Assembly (NCBI GenBank): GCA_028281265.1
Contig: JANQKE010000188.1
Span: forward strand, 1 to 64,000
From: Alphaproteobacteria bacterium
GTDB lineage: Bacteria > Pseudomonadota > Alphaproteobacteria > DSM-16000 > Inquilinaceae
DNA length: 64,000 bases
Direction: 5' to 3'
Shown here: positions 6,972-61,585 of the stretch, piece after piece
How positions within the stretch are numbered: the first letter of the stretch is position 1
Layout: each line of letters begins with the position of its first letter
Made by a program: the position numbers and the translations under genes
The notes under the pieces: model-generated
The model's input: the letters and a program-made list of their open reading frames with translations, nothing else
Databases searched by the model: none
What the model was told of the DNA's origin: nothing

Positions 6972-8180
6972 ATGACCCTTGCTGTCACAGCCGCGCCGCG
7001 GCCGGTGATCGACCGGCCCTGGCTGCTGATCGCCACGGCCGGTCTGGCGCTGGGCGCTGCGGCGATCGCCGTCCAGGTCGACGCCCGACAAGCGGCGTTG
7101 TTCCTGCTCGGCGGTGTTCTCGGACTGGCGCTCTACCATGCCGCCTTCGGCTTCACCGGTGGCTGGCGCGTCTTCGTGGTCGAGCGCCGGGGGGCCGGCA
7201 TCCGGGGGCAATTGCTGGCGATCGGGCTGGCGCTGCTCGCGTTCGCCCCGATCCTCGCTGCGGGGACGGTGTTCGGCCAACCGGTCGTCGGGGCCGTCGC
7301 CCCGGTCGGAGTCTCGGTGATCCTGGGGGCGTTCCTGTTCGGGCTCGGGATGCAGCTCGGCGGAGGATGCGGATCGGGAACCCTGTTCACGGTCGGTGCG
7401 GGCCATGGCCGGATGCTGATCACGCTCGGCTTCTTCATCGTCGGTGCCGTGGTCGGGACGGCGCATCTGCCGTTCTGGCTGACCCTGCCGAGTCTCGGCC
7501 CGGTCGCCCTGGCCGGCCTGTTCGGGACCTGGGGCGCGGTCGCCGTGCAGGGGGCGGTGCTGGCCGCTCTGGCATGGGGCACCTGGGTGTGGGAGCGGCG
7601 GCACGGGAACGGGCACGGTCCCGCACCGGCCGCCCCGCGTCCGCAGGTCACCGGCCCGCCGGGCCAACGGCTGCTGCGGGGTCCCTGGCCGCTGGTCTGG
7701 GGTGCGGTCGCCCTGGCGGCCGGCAACCTCGCGACCCTGCTGATCGCCGGCCATCCCTGGTCGATCACCTTCGCCTTCGGCCTGTGGGGGGCGAAGATCG
7801 CACAAGGGATCGGTATCGACATCGCCGCCTGGCCGTTCTGGGCGGCCGGCTATCCCGCCCGGGCCCTGGCCGCGTCGGTGCTGTCCGACGTCACCTCGGT
7901 GATGAATTTCGGGCTGATCCTGGGGGCGCTGGCGGCGGCGGGTCTGGCCGGCAGGGTTGCCCCGGCCGCGCCGCTGCCCTGGCGATCGGTCGCCGCGGCC
8001 GTGCTGGGCGGGCTGCTGATGGGTTACGGCGCCCGGCTCGCCTTCGGCTGCAACATCGGGGCGCTGTTCAGCGGCATCGCCTCGGGCAGCCTGCATGGCT
8101 GGCTGTGGCTGCTGGCGGCCTTCGTGGGTTCCTATCTGGGGATCCGCCTGCGCCCGGCCTTCGGTCTGGCCAATCTTTGA
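6972..8180 (+). CDS. YeeE/YedE (TsuA-like) sulfur-compound transporter
   Basis: A 402-residue integral membrane protein with about nine to ten hydrophobic segments and the family's pseudo-repeat. Each half carries the hallmark cysteine: Cys133 in GGGCGSGT and Cys360 in AFGCNIGALFSG. In TsuA, thiosulfate passes along conserved cysteines through the membrane, so thiosulfate or a related sulfur species is the likely cargo. A charged loop rich in Gly, His and Pro around residues 214-236 links the halves. It lies between the exported rhodanese gene and the Pro-Cys-Gly protein gene, all in one orientation with short gaps, so an operon is likely. Confidence 0.9.
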   Translation: MTLAVTAAPRPVIDRPWLLIATAGLALGAAAIAVQVDARQAALFLLGGVLGLALYHAAFGFTGGWRVFVVERRGAGIRGQLLAIGLALLAFAPILAAGTVFGQPVVGAVAPVGVSVILGAFLFGLGMQLGGGCGSGTLFTVGAGHGRMLITLGFFIVGAVVGTAHLPFWLTLPSLGPVALAGLFGTWGAVAVQGAVLAALAWGTWVWERRHGNGHGPAPAAPRPQVTGPPGQRLLRGPWPLVWGAVALAAGNLATLLIAGHPWSITFAFGLWGAKIAQGIGIDIAAWPFWAAGYPARALAASVLSDVTSVMNFGLILGALAAAGLAGRVAPAAPLPWRSVAAAVLGGLLMGYGARLAFGCNIGALFSGIASGSLHGWLWLLAAFVGSYLGIRLRPAFGLANL

Positions 8181-8201
8181 CGGTGGGGGGAGGGAGCCGG
8201 C

Positions 8202-8627
8202 ATGCGCCGATCGAAGATCCTGTTCGGATCCACCCTGGCGGTGGCGACGCTGGCGATCGCGGCCGATCACTGGGCCACGATCCGGCCAGCGCCGGAGGCG
8301 GAACCGGCGGCTTTCCGCGCGACGGCGGCGCCCGGTGCGGCCAGCCCGGCGAACGCGGCGGCCCCGCTCGACGCCCCTTGCGGCGTGGCGGCACCCGTTG
8401 CGGCGCCATGCGGCGCCCTCCCGGTGGCCGCGCCGTGCGGGGTCCTCCGGTCGCCGATCCCGTGCGGTGCCGGATCGGCCGGCCGCGGTACGGCGGCCGT
8501 CCGGCCGGCGCCGGCGGCAGCCCCTTGTGGCGTGGCCCCGGTTCGGACGGCGGCTCCGTGCGGAGCCGTCCCCGTCCTGGCCCATCCCTGTGGAGCGCTG
8601 CCGGTCAGCCCGTGCGCGCCGGGTTGA
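8202..8627 (+). CDS. Small exported Ala/Pro-rich protein with repeated Pro-Cys-Gly
   Basis: I do not recognise this 141-residue protein. Residues 5-21 form a hydrophobic signal peptide or membrane anchor. The rest is low-complexity Ala/Pro sequence with eight cysteines (60, 70, 79, 88, 109, 120, 130, 138); seven are in Pro-Cys-Gly and the last in Pro-Cys-Ala. Spacing is roughly 9-11 residues with one longer gap of 21. A strong GGGGGGAGGGA precedes the ATG. It starts 21 bp after the transporter and ends 9 bp from the convergent VOC gene. The setting suggests an extracytoplasmic thiol or persulfide carrier, or a metal binder, for the sulfur module. That role is inferred from context. Confidence 0.75.
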   Translation: MRRSKILFGSTLAVATLAIAADHWATIRPAPEAEPAAFRATAAPGAASPANAAAPLDAPCGVAAPVAAPCGALPVAAPCGVLRSPIPCGAGSAGRGTAAVRPAPAAAPCGVAPVRTAAPCGAVPVLAHPCGALPVSPCAPG

Positions 8628-8636
8628 GCCGCCGGC

Positions 8637-9020
8637 TCACGCGGCCTTGGCCTCGAACAGGCCGATCGAGTTGCCGTCGGGATCGATGCAGTACAGGAAC
8701 CGGCCCGCGGGGATGGTGATCGGCCCGTACAGCACCTGACCGCCGGCCTCCCGGCACCGCGCGGCGGCGGCCTCGACGGTGTCCGGCACGGCCAGGTGGA
8801 TCGTCGGCCCTTGGCCGCCGGTGGCCGGTTGACCGGGGTACAGATGACCGCCGATCCCGTCGCCGGTCCGGGTCGGGAGCATCGCCATCGGGTTCGGTCC
8901 GGACGTATCGTCCCGGGTGATGCTGACGCCGAGAACCTGGGTGTAGAACGCGCTGGCCGCGTCCATGTCGCGGACCGGGATTTCAAACCAAACGCACATA
9001 TGCTCGGGCGTGAAGGCCAT
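8637..9020 (-). CDS. VOC family protein (glyoxalase/bleomycin resistance fold)
   Basis: A 127-residue single-module vicinal-oxygen-chelate protein: N-terminal CVWFEIPVRDMDAASAFY strand-helix, then GHLYPG, and a C-terminal IDPDGNSIGLFE. Length and order fit the AraC-regulator-like or glyoxalase-type VOC proteins often annotated as PhnB-like. An in-frame start at 9077 would add 19 residues; I chose the ATG at 9020, which has GGGAG about eight bases upstream and matches typical family starts. It is convergent with the Pro-Cys-Gly gene. The substrate is unknown. Confidence 0.85.
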   Translation of the reverse strand: MAFTPEHMCVWFEIPVRDMDAASAFYTQVLGVSITRDDTSGPNPMAMLPTRTGDGIGGHLYPGQPATGGQGPTIHLAVPDTVEAAAARCREAGGQVLYGPITIPAGRFLYCIDPDGNSIGLFEAKAA

Positions 9021-9343
9021 GGCCGAGGTCTCCCAAAGTTGCGGAACGGGGGGACTCTCGCACAGGGCTGCTGCCATCGCTGTGGCAGCAGGCTCACGCG
9101 TCCGGCCCGATCGTCTCGGGCGCCGGTAGCGTCGGCGGGGGGTGACGGCCTATCCGCGGCGGACCGACCCTGCCGCCCTCTCCGATCGTATCCGCAAGGG
9201 TAGGCGGACCCGTGTGATCCGGGGCAAGTTCTTGCTAACGGTACGGCCGGTACCAATACCGTCTGACGTGCCGGTCGCGACGGGCGGCAACGCACGAGCC
9301 GTCAGGCGGGCCGCTTTCGAAAGGGGCGTCCGGACCCGATGCC
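9021..9343. other. Intergenic region between divergent VOC and PAS genes
   Basis: No gene is evident. A hairpin with 9-bp perfect arms (CTGCTGCCA and complement) lies at 9068-9091, and a shorter one (GGTAC/GTACC) lies around 9240. The region must hold the promoters of both flanking genes; I cannot assign boxes with confidence. Confidence 0.4.
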
Positions 9344-9778
9344 ATGACGCAATCACGCTACAAGCAGTTGCTAGCGCTTTGGCAATCAAAGCGAGCCGGC
9401 CGCCGCTACCCGGCGCGCTCGGACTTCGACGTTCTCGAACTGCGACCGTGGCTCGGTGACCTCGAACTGGTGGAGGTCGAGCGCACCGACGATGGCGGGT
9501 ACCGCTATCGATACCGGCTGGTGGGGACCCGGATCACCGACATCGACGGCATCGATGCCACCGGCCGTCATGCCGATGAGATCTTCATCGACAATTACAG
9601 CAATGTCGTCGACGAGTACGACGAGGTCCTGGAAACGGGGGAGCCCTGCCTGCGGGACTACTCGCCGTCGCTCAGCCGGCGGGGTCTGCATCGGACATAC
9701 CATAAGCTGGTGCTGCCCCTGGCGAGCGATGGGGAGACGATCGACATGCTGCTGGTGCTGCTCGAAGAACTTGCGTAG
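9344..9778 (+). CDS. PAS-domain protein (alphaproteobacterial PAS_5-like family)
   Basis: A 144-residue soluble protein consisting of a single PAS-like sensor domain and no attached output domain. It begins with a Leu-Ala-Leu-Trp helix, has the Arg-Asp-Phe-Asp...LRPWLGDLELVEVE pattern, and a YRYRLVGTRITDIDGIDATGRHADEI core typical of the family seen widely in Rhodospirillales. The ligand and partner are unknown. It lies 54 bp upstream of the degenerate cyanophycin-synthetase-like gene in the same orientation, so co-transcription is possible. Confidence 0.75.
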   Translation: MTQSRYKQLLALWQSKRAGRRYPARSDFDVLELRPWLGDLELVEVERTDDGGYRYRYRLVGTRITDIDGIDATGRHADEIFIDNYSNVVDEYDEVLETGEPCLRDYSPSLSRRGLHRTYHKLVLPLASDGETIDMLLVLLEELA

Positions 9779-9832: not shown

Positions 9833-11638
9833 GTGCATCAGGACGGCGTCTTCGAGGCGGGAGGATCGTCGCGCCCGGCGGTATCGGCGGGCGGCGGAGC
9901 GCTCTCCATCCTGAACGCATCCGTTCGTCTCGGTGCGAACGCCGACTCCGGCCGGACCGTATACGGGGCCGAGATCGCCTGCCGGCTGGCGGATGGCCAG
10001 GACCCGGCGGCGCTGGATCGGGCCGTGGCGATCCGGCTGGCCGAGCGGCTGCCGGCCTCTACGGACGTCGACCTCCCCCGGCTCGGCCGCCGGTTCGGTC
10101 TCGCCGATCTCATCGCGGTTGCCGTGGCGGCTGTGGAATGCGCCGCCGTACCCCGCATTCTGTGGTCCGCCGAGCCGCCCCGGGCGATGCCGTATCCCCT
10201 GGCGGACGGGATGTTCGGGGTCCGCCTCCGGTGGCATCCGGTGGTCCCGGCGCACGCGGCGGCGATCGTGGAGGCCGCGTTGGTCGTCCTGGACGGTGTG
10301 ATCGGGTGTACGGCACCCGGATCGGCGGCGGCTTTCCGCGACCGTCTGGCCGGGCTCCGGACCCGGATCGCGGCGGATTTGCCGCCGCCGGACGGCCAGC
10401 GGCTGCTCGCCGCCGCCCGGGACCGCGGTCTGCCGGCCGAACGCATCGCCGGGCCGCATCTCCGGATCGGGCAGGGGCGGCGGCAGGTTCACCTTTACGA
10501 CAGCATGCCGGCGGCGACCTCCTACGGGGCGGTACGGCGGCTGGGCGACCGTGACCGGGTCTGGGCGGTCTGGCGCGGGCAGGGTTTGCCGGTGCCGGCG
10601 CATCACATCGTCGGCAGCCGGGACGATCTGCGCGCGGCCGCGGCGTCGATCGGCCTGCCGGCCGTCGTCCAGCCGACCAAGACCCTCGCTGCCGCCGATC
10701 GGACGGTCCTCGTCGACAGCCGGGACCGGCTCGGCCCGGCCTATCGCCGGGCGGCCGGCCGGTCCGGTCCGGCCTTGGTCAGGACGCACCCGGCGGGTGA
10801 GCGGTACCGGCTGGTGATCGTCGGGCGGCGCATGGTGGCGGCCGCATGGGTGCGGGACGGCGCGGCCCGGGACGTCACCGACCGGGTCGACCCCGACGTC
10901 CAGATCCTGGCCGTCACCGCGGCGCGGAGCCTGGGCCTCGCGGTCGCCGGGATCGACCTTGTGACCCCGGATATCGGCCGGCCTCGCGCCCACGCCCCGG
11001 CCGTGCTGCTGGAAGCGACCGGCCGGCCCCCGCTCGACCTCCACCACGCGCCCGCGGCGGGGCCACCCCGGGACGTCGCCGGGGCGATCCTCGATTCCCT
11101 GTTCGACGGCCCCGATCGGGCGCACCTGCCGGTTCTGCTGGCGGTCGGAGACGCGCCGGCGGCCGAAGCCGTCGCCCGGGCCGTCCGGGCCTGCCTGCAG
11201 GCCGCCGGATATAGCACCGGCCTGTGCCTCGACCACCGGACGGAGCTGGACGGGGAACCCCTCGACGGCGCGCCGGCCGGCGGTGCATCGGGGCTTCGGG
11301 CCTTGGCGCGGGAACCCTATGTCGATGCCCTGGTCGCGGGGCTGTCGCCCGAGACCGTGATCGAGCAGGGGCTCGGCGTGATGCGCTGCCGGGCGGCTGC
11401 GCTGATCGGGCCGATCGGCACCGCCGCGGGGCAAGTGGCCCTGGCCGCGATGCTGAACGCCGGTGTCGACAGCGTGCTCGTTCCCCCGGCACGGCTGGCC
11501 GAGCCCGAGATGCGGCCGGTGGCCGACCGGCTGCGGGCCTTGTCGCAGACGGCGCCCGAGGGGGTGGCCGCGGCCCTGCTGGCCGCCGCCGGGCTGGAGC
11601 AAGAGTCAGGCATGAGGGTGATCCACCCTCATGCCTGA
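9833..11638 (+). CDS. Cyanophycin-synthetase-like protein with degenerate ATP-grasp domain
   Basis: A 601-residue protein that aligns by eye with its convergent neighbour and with CphA. An N-terminal domain (about 1-200) leads into RIGQGRRQVHLYDSM, the counterpart of RLGQGAAQRELFASI, then an ATP-grasp-like region (about 240-420). Key positions are lost: the VVKP lysine is Gln280, EVNARPG has become LEATGRP (393-399), and about 80 residues between the ATP-grasp halves are missing. The C-terminal third is a degenerate Mur-ligase-like remnant without a P-loop. It starts at GTG with GGAGG nine bases upstream. The last 13 codons lie inside palindromic repeat B. A pseudoenzyme partner is my inference. 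Confidence 0.7.
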   Translation: MHQDGVFEAGGSSRPAVSAGGGALSILNASVRLGANADSGRTVYGAEIACRLADGQDPAALDRAVAIRLAERLPASTDVDLPRLGRRFGLADLIAVAVAAVECAAVPRILWSAEPPRAMPYPLADGMFGVRLRWHPVVPAHAAAIVEAALVVLDGVIGCTAPGSAAAFRDRLAGLRTRIAADLPPPDGQRLLAAARDRGLPAERIAGPHLRIGQGRRQVHLYDSMPAATSYGAVRRLGDRDRVWAVWRGQGLPVPAHHIVGSRDDLRAAAASIGLPAVVQPTKTLAAADRTVLVDSRDRLGPAYRRAAGRSGPALVRTHPAGERYRLVIVGRRMVAAAWVRDGAARDVTDRVDPDVQILAVTAARSLGLAVAGIDLVTPDIGRPRAHAPAVLLEATGRPPLDLHHAPAAGPPRDVAGAILDSLFDGPDRAHLPVLLAVGDAPAAEAVARAVRACLQAAGYSTGLCLDHRTELDGEPLDGAPAGGASGLRALAREPYVDALVAGLSPETVIEQGLGVMRCRAAALIGPIGTAAGQVALAAMLNAGVDSVLVPPARLAEPEMRPVADRLRALSQTAPEGVAAALLAAAGLEQESGMRVIHPHA

Positions 11639-11647
11639 CTCTTGCTC
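11597..11647. repeat. Palindromic repeat family B, perfect 24-bp arms
   Basis: Arms at 11597-11620 and 11624-11647 are perfectly complementary around a 3-base loop; they start GAGCAAGAG and end CTCTTGCTC. The plus-strand gene stops inside the right arm (TGA 11636-11638), and the convergent gene ends 26 bp further on, so the element could act as a bidirectional terminator. No run of T follows directly. Confidence 0.9.
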
Positions 11648-11672
11648 TCGAAGATGAGTGTCAGAGCGGGAT

Positions 11673-13817
11673 TCAGACATCACGCGCGATTGACGCGGGC
11701 GCGCCGGGAGCCGCTGCGTTCGCTCGGTCCGGCGGAGGGGGGACGCCGAGCGCCCAGGCCATCGCCGTCGCCATGACGGTCGGTCGGTCTGGACCGGCCA
11801 GCGGCAGGCTGTCGATAGGGCGACCGGCCTGGGTCAGGTGCAGGGCTGGCCCCACCGCCTGGGCCACCAGCGCATCGTCGGGAACCCTCGCCGATCCCGG
11901 CGGATCGACCAGTACCAGCCGATCGACCGGAAGATCGCCGGCTGCCGCGACCCATGGCCAGGCGGCCGGCGCCACCACCAGCCGGCCGGTGGTGGCACGG
12001 GCCAGGAGTGCGACCACCGCGGCGGCGTCCGCCTGCCCCGACCCGGGGGCGGTCAGCGCCGTCACCGTCACCGCCTGGTGGTCCAGGCCGGAATCGAGCA
12101 CACGGCGCGGACTGGCGGTCTGAACCAGCGCCTCCAGCGCGTGGTCGTCCATCAGCCGACGCACCGTCTGCCGTTGGATCGCCGCGTCGCCCAGCGGCGT
12201 CACCGACCCGTCGAGATGCAGCGCCCGCCGCGTCGCCACCGCCGTGCGCCGGCCGGCCCGGTCCAGCAATCCGCCGAGGGCCCGGGCGACGGGCCCCGTC
12301 CCGGTCCCGCCGCAGACCAGCCCGATCGGGATCCGGCCATCCTGTCTGGCCGGGAAGAGGGCATCCAGCAAGGCGCCGGTCACGTCCCGCGGCGCGCCTT
12401 GCCAGGGCCAGCTATGGGGCCTGAGACCCGGCCGGGCGTTGACTTCGATGATCGCGCCGCCGGTTTCCTTGTAGGACCGGGTGATGTCGGTGGTCAGATA
12501 GTCGATCCCGGCGACGTCGAGCCCCAGGGCGCCGGCAGCCCGGATCGCCATGCGGACGGTGTCGGGGTGGACCGTGTCGGTGACGTCGATGGCGCAGCCG
12601 CCGGTCGACACGTTGGCCGTCGCCCGCAGCTTGAACACTGAGCCCGGCGGCAGGATGGTGTCCAGGGAATGGCCGTCGCGCGCCATCAGCCGGTCGAGTT
12701 CGCCGTCGTGCCGCACCCGGGCGCGGCGCAGCCCGTCCCGGAACGGATCGGTGTTGAGCGCGGCGATCAGCGCCCGGATCGTCCTGCGGCCGTCACCGGT
12801 GACGACGGGCGGGGAGCGGCGGACGCCGGCGACGAACCGGCCGTCGATCACCATCAGCCGGTGATCCTCGCCCTCGACGAACGTCTCGACCACCACCAGG
12901 CCGCCACCGGCACGGTCGAAAGCGGGCGGAATCTCCGCCGGCGCGCGCAGATTGGCGGTCACCCCGTCGCCTTTCTTGCCGCGTTCGGGCTTGACGACGA
13001 TCGGGTAGCCGATCGCGGCCGCTGCGGCGACCGCCTCCTCCGGGGAGGTGGCGTGGATCTGCCGGGGCACCGGCAGGCCGAGTTGCTCCAGGGCCTGGCT
13101 GGTCTGCTCCTTGCTGCCGGCGAGCACGCACGCACCCCGGGCGGTACGGTCGGTGATGGAGGCGAACAGCTCGCGCTGGGCGGCACCCTGGCCCAGACGG
13201 ATCCGCTGCTCCCCCAGGAGCTGGAGCGGCAGCCCGCGCTTCTCCGCCGCCTGCACGATCAGTGCCGAGCTGGGGGAGAGCAGATGCGCCTGTGCCCGCC
13301 GGCGCAGATCGGCATAGGCCTGATCGAAGCTCGGCGTTGCCGCACCGGCCGGCCGCAGCCCTTCGGGCAGCAGCTCGCCCAAACCGAGGAACGCCGTTTC
13401 GGCGGCGGCCTGGGAGATCTCCGGCACCCGCGCATCCCAGATCAGCAGGGCGTCGTCCGGTGTCGCGCCCGCGCCGCACTCGGCGAAGGTGACGGTTTCG
13501 AGATGGTGCATGGCGAACGCCATGGCCGCTTCGACCGCCAGCACCGCCTCGAAATAGAGGTCGAGCACCGCGACCGGCCGCCCCGCGGCCAGGGCTTCGG
13601 TGACACCGGGCCGCAGCGCCGGGCGCGGCGCCAGGGTCCGCAGCCGGCCGAACCGGTCCCGGTAGGCGGCGATCGCCCGGTCCCCCAGATCCAGCGCCGT
13701 GATCCCCCGCCACGCCCCAAGCGCGACCGGCTGAACGACCGCCGTCCGCGCGCAGTACCGGTTCTGACCTCGCAGGACGGACGATCGGCCAAGGGCGGGA
13801 GGGGGCCGGGCGGCCAT
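11673..13817 (-). CDS. Cyanophycin synthetase-like ATP-grasp protein (CphA2-like layout)
   Basis: A 714-residue protein with the CphA order: N-terminal domain opening with VLRGQNRY, then IRLGQGAAQ...SITDRTA, an ATP-grasp domain with VVKPERGKKGDGV (about 274-286), ETFVEGEDHRLMVI, ATANVSTGGCAIDVTD and the metal-binding EVNARPGLRPH (about 458-468). The following Mur-ligase-like part is short (about 220 residues), and the P-loop TGTNGKTT is replaced by CGGTGTGPV, so it should not bind ATP. CphA2 proteins that polymerise beta-Asp-Arg dipeptides also keep only the ATP-grasp site. An in-frame start at 13931 would add unlike sequence; I chose 13817. It is convergent with a degenerate paralogue. The product is unknown. 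Confidence 0.75.
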   Translation of the reverse strand: MAARPPPALGRSSVLRGQNRYCARTAVVQPVALGAWRGITALDLGDRAIAAYRDRFGRLRTLAPRPALRPGVTEALAAGRPVAVLDLYFEAVLAVEAAMAFAMHHLETVTFAECGAGATPDDALLIWDARVPEISQAAAETAFLGLGELLPEGLRPAGAATPSFDQAYADLRRRAQAHLLSPSSALIVQAAEKRGLPLQLLGEQRIRLGQGAAQRELFASITDRTARGACVLAGSKEQTSQALEQLGLPVPRQIHATSPEEAVAAAAAIGYPIVVKPERGKKGDGVTANLRAPAEIPPAFDRAGGGLVVVETFVEGEDHRLMVIDGRFVAGVRRSPPVVTGDGRRTIRALIAALNTDPFRDGLRRARVRHDGELDRLMARDGHSLDTILPPGSVFKLRATANVSTGGCAIDVTDTVHPDTVRMAIRAAGALGLDVAGIDYLTTDITRSYKETGGAIIEVNARPGLRPHSWPWQGAPRDVTGALLDALFPARQDGRIPIGLVCGGTGTGPVARALGGLLDRAGRRTAVATRRALHLDGSVTPLGDAAIQRQTVRRLMDDHALEALVQTASPRRVLDSGLDHQAVTVTALTAPGSGQADAAAVVALLARATTGRLVVAPAAWPWVAAAGDLPVDRLVLVDPPGSARVPDDALVAQAVGPALHLTQAGRPIDSLPLAGPDRPTVMATAMAWALGVPPPPDRANAAAPGAPASIARDV

Positions 13818-19827: not shown

Positions 19828-21306
19828 GTGCCCCGACTGATCGTGACGCTGCTGGCTGCCCTGCTGCTGTCCGGCCCGGCGATGGCGCAAGGCAACACGT
19901 GCCAGTGGGCCCATGACGGCGAATGCGATGAGCCGAGATACAACGGCACCGGCGCCTGCGACGACGGCACCGACGCCGCGGATTGCCAGGCGACGGGGAC
20001 GATCCCGGTGGGGGGCTCGACCTTGGTTCCGGGCGGTGCCGGGACGGTCGGTACCGCGCTCGCGGCACCGTCGCCGGATGTGTCGGGGGACGATAGCTGC
20101 CGCTGGGCGCTCGACGGTGAATGCGACGAGAGCCGGTACGGCGGCACCGGTGCTTGCCCGGCGGGCAGCGATACGACCGATTGCACGGGCGGCGGCACCC
20201 AGGCGGGCGGCGGTTTCAGCCCCGTCCCATCGGATTTCGGCGATGATAGTTGCCAATGGGCCCATGACGGGGAGTGTGACGACACCCGCTATGGCGGCAC
20301 CGGGGCCTGCCGTCCCGGCACCGACGCCTCGGACTGTCGGGCGGCGGCCGCCGGGGGCGACGACAGTTGCCGGTGGGCCTTCGACGGGGAATGCGACGAA
20401 CCCGGTATCGGCCTGGGCCTCTGTACGACCGGGACCGATACGACGGACTGTGCGCCGGTGGCGTTTCTGCGCAACCGCACCAATCGCTGTGCCTCCGCCT
20501 TCGACGGGACTTGCGACGAACCGGGCCGGGGGACCGGCCGCTGCGATGCCGACAGCGACACCGCCGATTGTCTTGGCCGCGGTCGGCCGCCCCAGGCCGC
20601 CGACCATTACTTCGGCCGGGATGACCGGTTCGCACCGGATTCGTCCCGCCTGCCGTGGCGGGCGATCGGCCAGTTGACCGACGGGGATGGTGACGGCGTC
20701 TGCACCGCCACCCTGATCGGCTCCCGCCACGTGCTGACGGCGGCCCATTGCGTCATCGATGACGAGGGCGCGGTCGCCATGCCGGAACGCTTCCAGGCCG
20801 GCTTCTCCGGCCGGCGGGATGCGGGGCAGGCCCGGGCGGTCCGGGTGATCGCGGCACCGGACTACACCGACGAGCCCCGTGGCGCCGGCGAAGGCAACGG
20901 CAATGACTGGGCGATCGTCGAACTGGACCAGCCGCTGGGCGATCGGGTCGGCTATCTCGGTGTCCGCACGCTGACCCGGGAAGAGCTGGATCGGATCGAC
21001 CGCAGCGGGCTGGTGGTCAGCCAGGCGGGCTATAGCTGGGATACCGGAGACCATCTGTCGGGCCATGCCGGCTGCCGGGTGATCGAGCACTACCGGGATG
21101 GCACGATCCTGCACGAATGCGACACCACATCCGGGGACAGCGGCAGTCCGATCTGGGTGGAGGAGCCCGACGGGCGCGTCTCGATCATCGCCGTCGATAG
21201 CCAGTTCTTCAGCAAGCAAGACGCCGTCACCCCGTTCGGCACCGCCAATCTCGCCGTCGACAGCCGGGCCTTCATCGCCGCGGTGAACCGCGCGCTGGGA
21301 CGCTGA
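19828..21306 (+). CDS. Exported trypsin-like serine protease with five Cys-rich repeats
   Basis: A 492-residue secreted protein: signal peptide (1-20), five Cys-rich repeats of about 28 residues at 25-53, 91-119, 142-170, 181-208 and 221-248, then an S1-type protease domain (about 275-490). The triad is His307 (TAAHC), Asp360 (NDWAIV) and Ser438 (GDSGSP). Each repeat has four cysteines in the order C-x8-C-...-C-x8-C and a final Gly-Thr-Asp-x2-Asp-Cys that recalls the acidic calcium loop of LDL-receptor class A modules. Linkers are Gly/Thr/Ser-rich. The GTG start follows GGAGGG. Function of the repeats is unknown; adhesion or calcium-dependent folding is plausible. Confidence 0.85.
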   Translation: MPRLIVTLLAALLLSGPAMAQGNTCQWAHDGECDEPRYNGTGACDDGTDAADCQATGTIPVGGSTLVPGGAGTVGTALAAPSPDVSGDDSCRWALDGECDESRYGGTGACPAGSDTTDCTGGGTQAGGGFSPVPSDFGDDSCQWAHDGECDDTRYGGTGACRPGTDASDCRAAAAGGDDSCRWAFDGECDEPGIGLGLCTTGTDTTDCAPVAFLRNRTNRCASAFDGTCDEPGRGTGRCDADSDTADCLGRGRPPQAADHYFGRDDRFAPDSSRLPWRAIGQLTDGDGDGVCTATLIGSRHVLTAAHCVIDDEGAVAMPERFQAGFSGRRDAGQARAVRVIAAPDYTDEPRGAGEGNGNDWAIVELDQPLGDRVGYLGVRTLTREELDRIDRSGLVVSQAGYSWDTGDHLSGHAGCRVIEHYRDGTILHECDTTSGDSGSPIWVEEPDGRVSIIAVDSQFFSKQDAVTPFGTANLAVDSRAFIAAVNRALGR

Positions 21307-22155: not shown

Positions 22156-22203
22156 TAGATCAACCTGCGTTCAGATGGACTCATCTGAACGCAGGTTGAT
22201 CTA
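22156..22203. repeat. Palindromic repeat family A, complete hairpin H1
   Basis: Perfect 22-bp arms at 22156-22177 and 22182-22203 surround the loop GACT; the core is CTGCGTTCAGATG. It is separated by the A+T-rich spacer ATTTAAAGAGT from a second, related hairpin that ends in the cysNC stop codon. The same pair and spacer recur after dnaB. Confidence 0.9.
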
Positions 22204-31352: not shown

Positions 31353-34013
31353 ATGATGGCCGTGCCTGACGCCTCCGCCGTGCCGCCCCAGCCCAAGCGG
31401 CTGTCCGACTACGCCCCGCCGGCGTTCATCGTCGATACCGTGGACCTGGTGTTCGACCTCGATCCGACGACCACGCGGGTCAAGGCGCGACTGGGGCTGC
31501 GGCGCAATCCTGCGCCGGGGCTCGATCCCCGCGCGCCCTGCCGGCTGGACGGCGACGGGTTGACCCTGGTCGGGCTGGAGATCGACGGCGCCCCGCCCGA
31601 ACAGGGCCAGGTCGCCATGCGCCCGGACGGGCTGATCATCGACGGCCTGCCACAGGCCTGCACGCTCGACATCGAAACGGAGATCGGTCCCGCGACCAAC
31701 ACGGCCCTGTCCGGACTGTACGAATCCGGCGGCAACCTCACCACCCAGTGCGAGCCCGAAGGGTTCCGGCGGATCACCTATTTCCCCGACCGGCCGGACG
31801 TGCTGGCGCGCTACACCGTGACCTTGCTGGCCGACCGGCAGCGCTTCCCGGTCCTGCTGTCGAACGGCAACCGGGTCGACGCGGGCGAGACCGGGGACGG
31901 CCGGCACTGGGCCAAATGGGTCGATCCGTTCCCCAAGCCGTCCTATCTGTTCGCGCTCGTCGCCGGGGACCTCGAAGCGGTGCGGGACCGGTTCGTCACC
32001 CGGTCGGGCCGGGCGGTGGAACTGGCGATCTACGTCCGCGCCCCCGACCTCGACAAATGCGATCACGCCATGGAGAGCCTGAAGGCATCCATGCGCTGGG
32101 ACGAGGCGGTCTTCGGCCTCGAATACGATCTCGACATCTTCAACATCGTCGCCGTGTCCGACTTCAACATGGGCGCGATGGAGAACAAGAGCCTGAACAT
32201 CTTCAATACCGCCCTGGTGCTGGCCAAGCCGGAGACCGCGACGGATACCGACTATCACCGGATCGAAAGCGTCGTCGCGCACGAGTATTTCCACAACTGG
32301 ACCGGCAACCGGATCACCTGCCGGGACTGGTTCCAGCTCACCCTCAAGGAAGGGCTGACCGTCTTCCGCGACCAGTTGTTCAGCGCCGACCAGGGCGATC
32401 CGACGGTGCAGCGGATCGTCGATGTCAGGCGGCTCAGGGCGGCCCAGTTCCCCGAGGATCAGGGGCCGCTCGCCCACCCGATCCGACCCGAAAGCTATAT
32501 CGAGATCAACAACTTCTACACCCCGACCGTGTACGAGAAGGGGGCGGAGGTGATCCGCATGATCCACACCCTGCTGGGTCATGACCGGTTCATGGACGGC
32601 ATGCGGCTGTATGTGGAGCGGCACGACGGCCAGGCGGTGACGTGCGAAGACTTCGTCGCCGCGATGGAGGATGCGGGCCCTGTCGACCTGACCGCCTTCA
32701 GAACCTGGTATCGTCAGGCCGGGACCCCGACGCTGACGGTGTCGGACGCCTATGACGCCGCGGCCGGAACCTACCGGCTGCACCTGCGGCAGACCACGCC
32801 GCCGACGCCGGGCCAGCCGGACAAGGACCCCGTCGTCCTGCCGATCCGCTTAGGCCTGGTCGGGCTCGGCGGCGGTGTGCTTGCCGTCACCCCGGACGGC
32901 GACGAGGAGACGGTCATCGTCCTGGATCGGGCCGAAACGGTCGTGGAGGTCGGCGGCCTGACCGAGCGCCCGGTGCCGTCGCTGCTGCGCGGCTTCTCCG
33001 CTCCGGTCAGGGTCGACGGCCTCGGCCGGGACGCCCTGGAGGTGCTGTTCGCCTACGACCCCGATCCGTTCGGCCGCTGGGAAGCCGGCCAGCAACTGGC
33101 CACGGATCTGCTGCTGGAGATGGTCGCGACGCTGCAGGACGGCGGGCAGCCGGCCTTGTCCGACCGGTTCGTCGAGGCGTTCGCCCGTACCCTGGCCGAC
33201 GATCGGCTGGCCCCCGCCCTGAAGGCGGAGGCCCTGGCCCTGCCGGGGGAGGATTTCCTGGCCGACCGGATGGCCGTCGCCGACCCGGTCGCCATCTTTC
33301 GGGTCCGCGATCTCGCCCGGCGGACGATCGCCACCCGTCTCCGCGAGGCGCTGGCCGCCGCCTACGACGCCATGACCGACCGGGGACCCTTCCGCAAGGA
33401 CGGGGCCGCGGTCGGACGGCGCGCGCTCAAGAACCTCTGTCTGGGTCTGCTGGGCACGCTGACCGACGATGCCGAGGCGATGGCCCTGGTCGACGGCCAG
33501 ATGGCCCGGGCGGACAACATGACGGATTCGCTGGCGGCGCTGGCGATCCTCAACCACCAGGACCGGCCGGAACGGGCCGAGGCCTTGGCCGGGTTCTACG
33601 ACCGCTGGCGGGAGGAGGCGCTGGTGATCGACAAGTGGTTCAGCCTCCAGGCGGCGACCCGGCGCCCGGCCGCGCTGGCGGAGGTCGAGGCGCTGCTGGG
33701 CCATCCGGACTTCACCTTGCGCAATCCCAACCGGGTGAGGGCGCTGGTCGGCGGCTTCGCCGGAGGCAACCCGCTGCACTTCCACGACGCCGGCGGGTCG
33801 GGCTATGCGTTCCTGGCCGATCAGGTCTTGGCGCTCGATCCCCTGAACCCGCAGATGGCGGCCCGGCTGCTGACCCCGCTGGGGCGTTGGCGCCGGGTCG
33901 ACGCGTCGCGGCAAGCGCTGATGACGGCGCAGTTGAGCCGGATCCTGGCCGCGCCGGACCTGTCGCGCGACAGCTACGAGATCGCCAGCAAGAGCCTGGA
34001 GCAAGATGACTGA
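31353..34013 (+). CDS. pepN: Aminopeptidase N
   Basis: An 886-residue M1 zinc metallopeptidase that removes N-terminal residues from peptides in the cytosol. The substrate-anchoring GAMEN motif is in FNMGAMENKSLN, and the zinc site HEYFH is at 310-314 with the downstream Glu in NRITCRDWFQLTLKEGLT. The C-terminal DUF3458-type helical domain is complete. Length matches E. coli PepN. ATG codons at 31353 and 31356 are adjacent. The last four codons (Glu-Gln-Asp-Asp) and the stop lie in a decayed copy of palindromic repeat B. Confidence 0.95.
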   Translation: MMAVPDASAVPPQPKRLSDYAPPAFIVDTVDLVFDLDPTTTRVKARLGLRRNPAPGLDPRAPCRLDGDGLTLVGLEIDGAPPEQGQVAMRPDGLIIDGLPQACTLDIETEIGPATNTALSGLYESGGNLTTQCEPEGFRRITYFPDRPDVLARYTVTLLADRQRFPVLLSNGNRVDAGETGDGRHWAKWVDPFPKPSYLFALVAGDLEAVRDRFVTRSGRAVELAIYVRAPDLDKCDHAMESLKASMRWDEAVFGLEYDLDIFNIVAVSDFNMGAMENKSLNIFNTALVLAKPETATDTDYHRIESVVAHEYFHNWTGNRITCRDWFQLTLKEGLTVFRDQLFSADQGDPTVQRIVDVRRLRAAQFPEDQGPLAHPIRPESYIEINNFYTPTVYEKGAEVIRMIHTLLGHDRFMDGMRLYVERHDGQAVTCEDFVAAMEDAGPVDLTAFRTWYRQAGTPTLTVSDAYDAAAGTYRLHLRQTTPPTPGQPDKDPVVLPIRLGLVGLGGGVLAVTPDGDEETVIVLDRAETVVEVGGLTERPVPSLLRGFSAPVRVDGLGRDALEVLFAYDPDPFGRWEAGQQLATDLLLEMVATLQDGGQPALSDRFVEAFARTLADDRLAPALKAEALALPGEDFLADRMAVADPVAIFRVRDLARRTIATRLREALAAAYDAMTDRGPFRKDGAAVGRRALKNLCLGLLGTLTDDAEAMALVDGQMARADNMTDSLAALAILNHQDRPERAEALAGFYDRWREEALVIDKWFSLQAATRRPAALAEVEALLGHPDFTLRNPNRVRALVGGFAGGNPLHFHDAGGSGYAFLADQVLALDPLNPQMAARLLTPLGRWRRVDASRQALMTAQLSRILAAPDLSRDSYEIASKSLEQDD

Positions 34014-34048
34014 GGGGTGACCCACCCTCCTGCCTGCCTCTTGCTCTC
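33999..34048. repeat. Palindromic repeat family B, decayed copy at the pepN 3' end
   Basis: The outer arms GAGCAAGA (33999-34006) and TCTTGCTC (34041-34048) are intact, and the centre keeps GGGGTG/CACCCT, while the middle of the arms has diverged. The pepN TGA lies inside the left arm. The mlaF gene ends 37 bp further on in the opposite direction. Confidence 0.7.
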
Positions 34049-61538: not shown

Positions 61539-61585
61539 AGAGCAAGATGACCGGAGGGTGATTCACCCTCCGGTCATCTTGCTCT
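61539..61585. repeat. Palindromic repeat family B, perfect 23-bp arms, between divergent genes
   Basis: Arms at 61539-61561 and 61563-61585 are perfectly complementary around a single base; the ends are AGAGCAAGATGACCGG and its complement. It lies between the divergent glpD and YdbH-like genes, unlike the other two copies at gene ends. A following TAGG recalls the TAG edge of family A. Confidence 0.9.

Follow-up and report, generated by a model that had tools for sequence, protein, structure and literature searches.

A convergent pair of CphA-like paralogues without a Mur-ligase active site: a putative single-site ligase and its predicted pseudo-ATP-grasp sister

Cyanophycin synthetases (CphA), the enzymes behind the storage polymer cyanophycin, have been studied as two-site polymer makers; the one exception described is the cyanobacterial CphA2, which has a single site. 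What could be the function of two CphA-like genes that face each other in one genome, both devoid of the Mur-ligase active site? We have addressed this question in a stretch of 64,000 nucleotides (the window; positions 1 to 64,000 of contig JANQKE010000188.1, assembly GCA_028281265.1) from an alphaproteobacterium of the family Inquilinaceae. An initial annotation had pointed out the convergent pair, and its coordinates, strands and protein lengths (601 and 714 residues) were correct. The two genes are separated by 34 bp:

9833-11638, + strand: P0001, CphA homologue of 601 residues, GTG start
11673-13817, - strand: P0002, CphA homologue of 714 residues, reading frame open to 13931

The explanation that we favour is that P0002 would be a working ligase without a Mur half, and P0001 an ATP-incompetent protein that may be its heteromeric partner. 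Taken as a whole, we give this explanation roughly even chances of being right.

Loss of the Mur active site and the two ATP-grasp domains

The CphA models of NCBIfam, NF010623 and TIGR02068, matched both proteins. NF010623 did so at 1.4e-121 for P0002 and 9e-51 for P0001, and TIGR02068 gave 354.7 and 154.7 bits, respectively. All matches stayed far under the curated cut-offs, which for the TIGR02068 equivalog is 850 bits. Pfam returned ATP-grasp/RimK matches in P0002 and none in P0001. The best matches among solved structures were CphA1s in both cases. Across the ATP-grasp region, P0002 aligned to CphA1s at ~38-47% identity.

We have mapped the residues of both proteins on TeCphA1, with the ATP-grasp (G) domain residues as assigned in PMC9427784, which also provides the roles of the catalytic residues listed below, N452 excepted. 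The Mur-ligase P-loop and the catalytic K499/E558 of CphA1 were absent from both proteins. The loss of the P-loop had been noticed by the initial annotation; GTNGKT is changed to GGTGTG in P0002 and to GDAPAA in P0001. P0002 carries T/G at K499/T500 and T at E558, and a Mur-core remnant is also found in P0001. The Cx19HxxEH motif, with which the N domain of most CphA1s makes primers (PMC9262961), had no match in P0001 or P0002; a slightly relaxed form matched 34 of 38 CphA1 controls.

Judged by its residues, P0002 has an intact G domain and a dead and truncated Mur domain, and the claim that the larger protein keeps its ATP-grasp site was thus borne out. The retained positions (TeCphA1 numbering) are K220, K261, R309, R323, N394, S396, D431, E450, N452, G456 and R458, among which R323, N394, S396 and R458 bind aspartate in TeCphA1 (PMC9427784). 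P0002 departs from TeCphA1 in having V instead of E215 and K instead of H267, the latter change being shared with the two CphA2s of solved structure. Outside the omega lid, it keeps 87 of the 117 G-domain columns conserved in CphA1, and P0001 keeps 56.

P0001 carried the substitutions K220R, K261Q, H267A, R323V, N452T, G456P and R458D. A different sequence stands at its glycine loop, and the omega lid, including N394 and S396, is deleted: the omega region comprises 9 residues vs. 79-84, with gaps at 25 of the 27 conserved omega columns. The hallmarks of the ATP-grasp superfamily (two ATP-binding lysines and an acidic/amide Mg site) are present in P0002 but not in P0001. P0001 is, from these positions, a catalytically dead ATP-grasp protein (pseudoenzyme), predicted to be incapable of binding or using ATP. 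The suggestion of a two-protein ATP-grasp system with both members working does not hold, given Q, R and T at K261, K220 and N452 of P0001, the missing glycine loop and the missing omega lid. A literature search on cyanophycin synthetase and pseudoenzyme returned no match. The positions concerned are the following:

12990-12992, - strand: P0002 codon 276, K equivalent to the ATP-binding K261 (residue map)
12438-12446, - strand: P0002 codons 458-460, EVN, equivalent to the Mg/ATP-site residues E450 and N452 (alignment, residue map)
12291-12314, - strand: P0002 codons 502-509, CGGTGTGP, Mur P-loop remnant without GKT (alignment)
10670-10672, + strand: P0001 codon 280, Q at the K261 position (residue map)
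10844-10864, + strand: P0001 site of omega-lid loss, ~70-75 residues gone (residues ~338-344; alignments)
11018-11020, + strand: P0001 codon 396, T at N452 of the Mg/ATP site (residue map)

AlphaFold models were built from an alignment of 40 sequences, mostly CphA1, and therefore lean to the CphA fold. The P0001 model had a pLDDT (predicted local distance difference test) of 77, rising to more than 90 over most of the G core, and that of P0002 a pLDDT of 79. For both models, Foldseek ranked CphA1 first, then CphA2, then GshF-type glutathione synthetases and RimK. From these results, we predict that P0001 folds as a CphA-type protein. The GC content by codon position was coding-like in both genes, which is weak evidence, since this GC-rich DNA has an open frame on the opposite strand too.

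Origin of the pair and absence of other cyanophycin genes

P0001 and P0002 grouped as sister paralogues, with support of 99/96 for the whole proteins and 100/100 for the ATP-grasp region. This relationship had gone unremarked in the initial annotation, as had the destruction of the P0001 ATP-grasp site. The branch lengths were ~2.1-2.3 for P0001 vs. 0.8 for P0002, and the exact placement of the long P0001 branch carries some risk. A position of the pair inside the CphA2 clade was ruled out by the approximately unbiased (AU) test (p 0.011). The bit scores also favoured CphA1, with P0002 scoring 302 bits against the CphA1 7lgm and 184 bits against CphA2. As the pair lies outside the CphA2 clade, the Mur loss of P0002 is best read as independent of that of CphA2.

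The AU test also ruled out (p 0.018) that P0001 is sister to L095, a CphA from another genome (G017) with a dead G domain, and the omega lid was therefore probably lost twice. In L095 (positions 6973-9402), the ATP-grasp is dead, with the omega lid gone, and the Mur P-loop is intact. Another CphA of G017, L093, shows the reverse, a live ATP-grasp and a dead P-loop; lying on separate contigs, L093 and L095 form a possible complementary split.

That P0002 ligates at a single site as CphA2 does, as had been suggested, is plausible from its sequence. Like the solved CphA2s (PDB 7ta5 and 8fxh), P0002 has lost the Mur site, falls near ~600-700 residues, has one ATP-grasp site and K267, and lacks the N-domain motif. 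Since CphA2 chemistry is on record (PMC10206079), P0002 might repolymerise beta-Asp-Arg or related isodipeptides, imported or freed by an unrecognised hydrolase, into ordinary cyanophycin. However, the protein belongs to a separate, proteobacterial clade, keeps R458 where CphA2 has Y or F, has V at 215 where CphA2 has D, and is flanked by a dead paralogue. Moreover, the genome lacks the CphA1 and cyanophycinase that would supply the dipeptide as for CphA2. We consider such scavenging quite unlikely.

The genome (99% complete, 232 contigs) was searched with the CphA models and with P0001 and P0002 themselves, and no CphA1 was found. A pair constantly accompanied by a canonical CphA1, the case that the initial annotation had held against its own proposal, is therefore not what this genome presents. 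The next matches after the pair were an ATP-grasp protein that we take to be N-acetylglutaminylglutamine-synthetase-like, and what we presume to be true Mur ligases. The reported absence of a cyanophycinase near the pair extended to the entire genome, which also had no IaaA-type asparaginase, and matches to the isoaspartyl dipeptidase IadA reached only about 20 bits, far under the cut-off. Given the completeness and contig number, an overlooked gene is possible but unlikely. With the other known cyanophycin genes absent, the product is probably not cyanophycin. Compared with CphA1, the pair shares the CphA fold, and P0002 has its catalytic and aspartate-acceptor set except for H267 (K). In contrast, both proteins are devoid of the Mur P-loop and largely of the Mur half, the N-domain motif and cyanophycinase are absent, and P0001 has no working site.

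These absences would also be compatible with a decaying cyanophycin locus, in which a CphA lost its Mur half, the cyanophycinase disappeared, and P0002 and P0001 represent early and advanced decay without present function. Such decay would fit a P0001 that is dead, fast-evolving and without orthologues, as well as genome G008 of the same family, where a CphA1 still adjoins a cyanophycinase. On the other hand, the catalytic residues and acceptor pocket of P0002 are intact, as are most of its conserved G-core columns. The P0001 frame is also unbroken over its full length with coding-like GC, a point weakened by the open opposite strand. We regard decay of the whole locus as rather unlikely.

Distribution and Mur-less relatives

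Three partly overlapping sets of genomes, with 17 from the order, 385 sampled from the class and 399 sampled from the phylum (roughly 800 altogether), yielded no P0001 orthologue. The GTDB genome collection was also scanned by pattern, which detects close relatives only, and gave no P0001 relative either. Co-conservation of the pair can therefore not be shown, and the co-occurring pairs for which the initial annotation had proposed a search did not appear in these samples. An alignment scan based on P0002 recovered only canonical CphA1s with an intact P-loop (Gemmatimonadota, Woeseiaceae and others), and the P-loop was present in all 80 of the 80 best named relatives.

Shortened CphA proteins were found elsewhere. 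In other proteobacterial classes, a short CphA (~720-850 residues) with a live ATP-grasp and a mostly degraded Mur P-loop adjoins a full CphA1, an arrangement that presumably corresponds to the cphA'/cphA pairs of Ralstonia and others. These tandems resemble our locus in having two adjacent CphA paralogues, one of them short and with a live ATP-grasp. They differ in that this paralogue is paired with a full CphA1 in tandem, whereas in our locus it faces a dead, Mur-less copy in convergent orientation.

Among Alphaproteobacteria, Mur-less CphA-like proteins of ~600-715 residues are frequent and usually solitary. In the genus g171, three of the four genomes sampled (G196, G757 and G758; loci L223-L237) have 12-13 CphA-like matches each. 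Most of these proteins lack the Mur P-loop and many are encoded in tandem, in part as clusters comprising two or three genes. The core ATP residues are intact in nearly all copies, three having Q at N452, and the acceptor residues are varied. The Mur-less proteins of g171 were the nearest tree neighbours of the pair, with weak support. Their clusters share with our locus the adjacency of Mur-less proteins (~600-800 residues), but the copies there retain the core ATP-site residues. Several g171 genes adjoin genes resembling peptide ABC-transporter binding proteins. In genome G703, an AMP-binding (adenylation) domain is fused to a Mur-less CphA-like ATP-grasp (L128, 4258-7566), and the immediate neighbour is another Mur-less CphA-like gene (L128, 7785-9761); genes resembling hut genes lie near these two.

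The solitary genes, the tandem expansions and the adenylation fusion would be in line with P0002 working alone in the making of a specialised metabolite, as a ligase that forms dipeptides or oligopeptides, a role that the many Mur-less relatives may have too; P0001 would be a bystander copy. However, the window contains no biosynthetic neighbours, and the role of the relatives is itself conjectural. This possibility seems to us very improbable.

Proposed activity and setting of the locus

Returning to the explanation that we favour, the two convergent copies would descend by duplication from a single CphA-type gene whose Mur active site had been lost. P0002, which is probably an active enzyme, would take a small peptide or oligomer and turn its C-terminal carboxylate into an acyl phosphate. 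This would then be coupled to the amino group of either aspartate or a beta-aspartyl dipeptide; we hold an acceptor with such an aspartate-like head group to be slightly more likely than not. The reaction would correspond to the CphA backbone step minus the arginine-adding Mur step and, no Mur half being present, arginine would enter the product only if brought by the acceptor.

For P0001, the most likely role would be that of a non-catalytic partner in a heteromer with P0002, with a relic being less likely, although we see the case for a partner as finely balanced. CphA1 G domains form dimers in which E215 reaches across into the partner site (PMC9427784), and because of this a P0001-P0002 heteromer is a natural guess. 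A bolder version, which we consider unlikely, is that P0002 and its pseudoenzyme sister form an obligate heteromer whose product is an (iso)aspartyl peptide or polymer other than cyanophycin, as part of a wider alphaproteobacterial Mur-less radiation that makes diverse isopeptides.

Several points weigh against the favoured explanation. The P0001 branch is ~3 times that of P0002, and a relic would show the same. At the position of E215, which reads the cyanophycin arginine in TeCphA1, P0002 has V and P0001 has R. The pair was found in no other genome sampled, its convergent genes form no operon, and the window neighbours, including PAS_5, SDR, lytic transglycosylase and VOC proteins, point to no pathway. 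Finally, the substrate, the product and the P0001-P0002 interaction are inferred rather than observed.

The neighbours of the pair also comprise a 2-oxoglutarate-Fe(II) oxygenase, a rhodanese, a sulphur transporter, and CMD and TPR proteins. At 8202-8627, adjoining the sulphur transporter and rhodanese gene, a small open frame of 141 residues has many APCG-type cysteine repeats. At 19828-21306, a predicted secreted protein shows, by eye, several tandem Cys-rich repeats of the type CxWAxDGECDExRYxGTGAC followed by a trypsin-like part.

The palindrome placed between the genes by the initial annotation is real and perfect, but it is not part of the system:

11597-11647, no strand: perfect palindrome, 24-nt arms (11597-11620 and 11624-11647), 3-nt loop, overlapping the last codons and stop of P0001

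Its folding z of -7.4 indicates a very stable hairpin. We counted 43 copies of the half-site AGCAAGA-N-AGGGTG in the genome, often arranged as inverted pairs, vs. one for a reversed control pattern. Further copies lie at ~33999-34046 and 61539-61585 of the window and at some 30 more genome sites. The palindrome is a member of a genome-wide repeat family resembling REP (repetitive extragenic palindromic) elements, and on this ground was rejected as belonging functionally to the pair; it may serve as a bidirectional terminator between P0001 and P0002. Another perfect inverted repeat (22 nt, 4-nt loop) of unrelated sequence lies at 22156-22203.

Loss of the Mur half in this pair thus appears to be independent of CphA2, with the ATP-grasp site of one sister copy gone as well. 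If the heteromer is real, it would provide a clean system to examine the contribution of the interface that the G domains share in the dimer, and would show what CphA-type ligases make without arginine addition. The main source of interest is the Mur-less radiation, which suggests a pool of uncharacterised isopeptide-forming enzymes.

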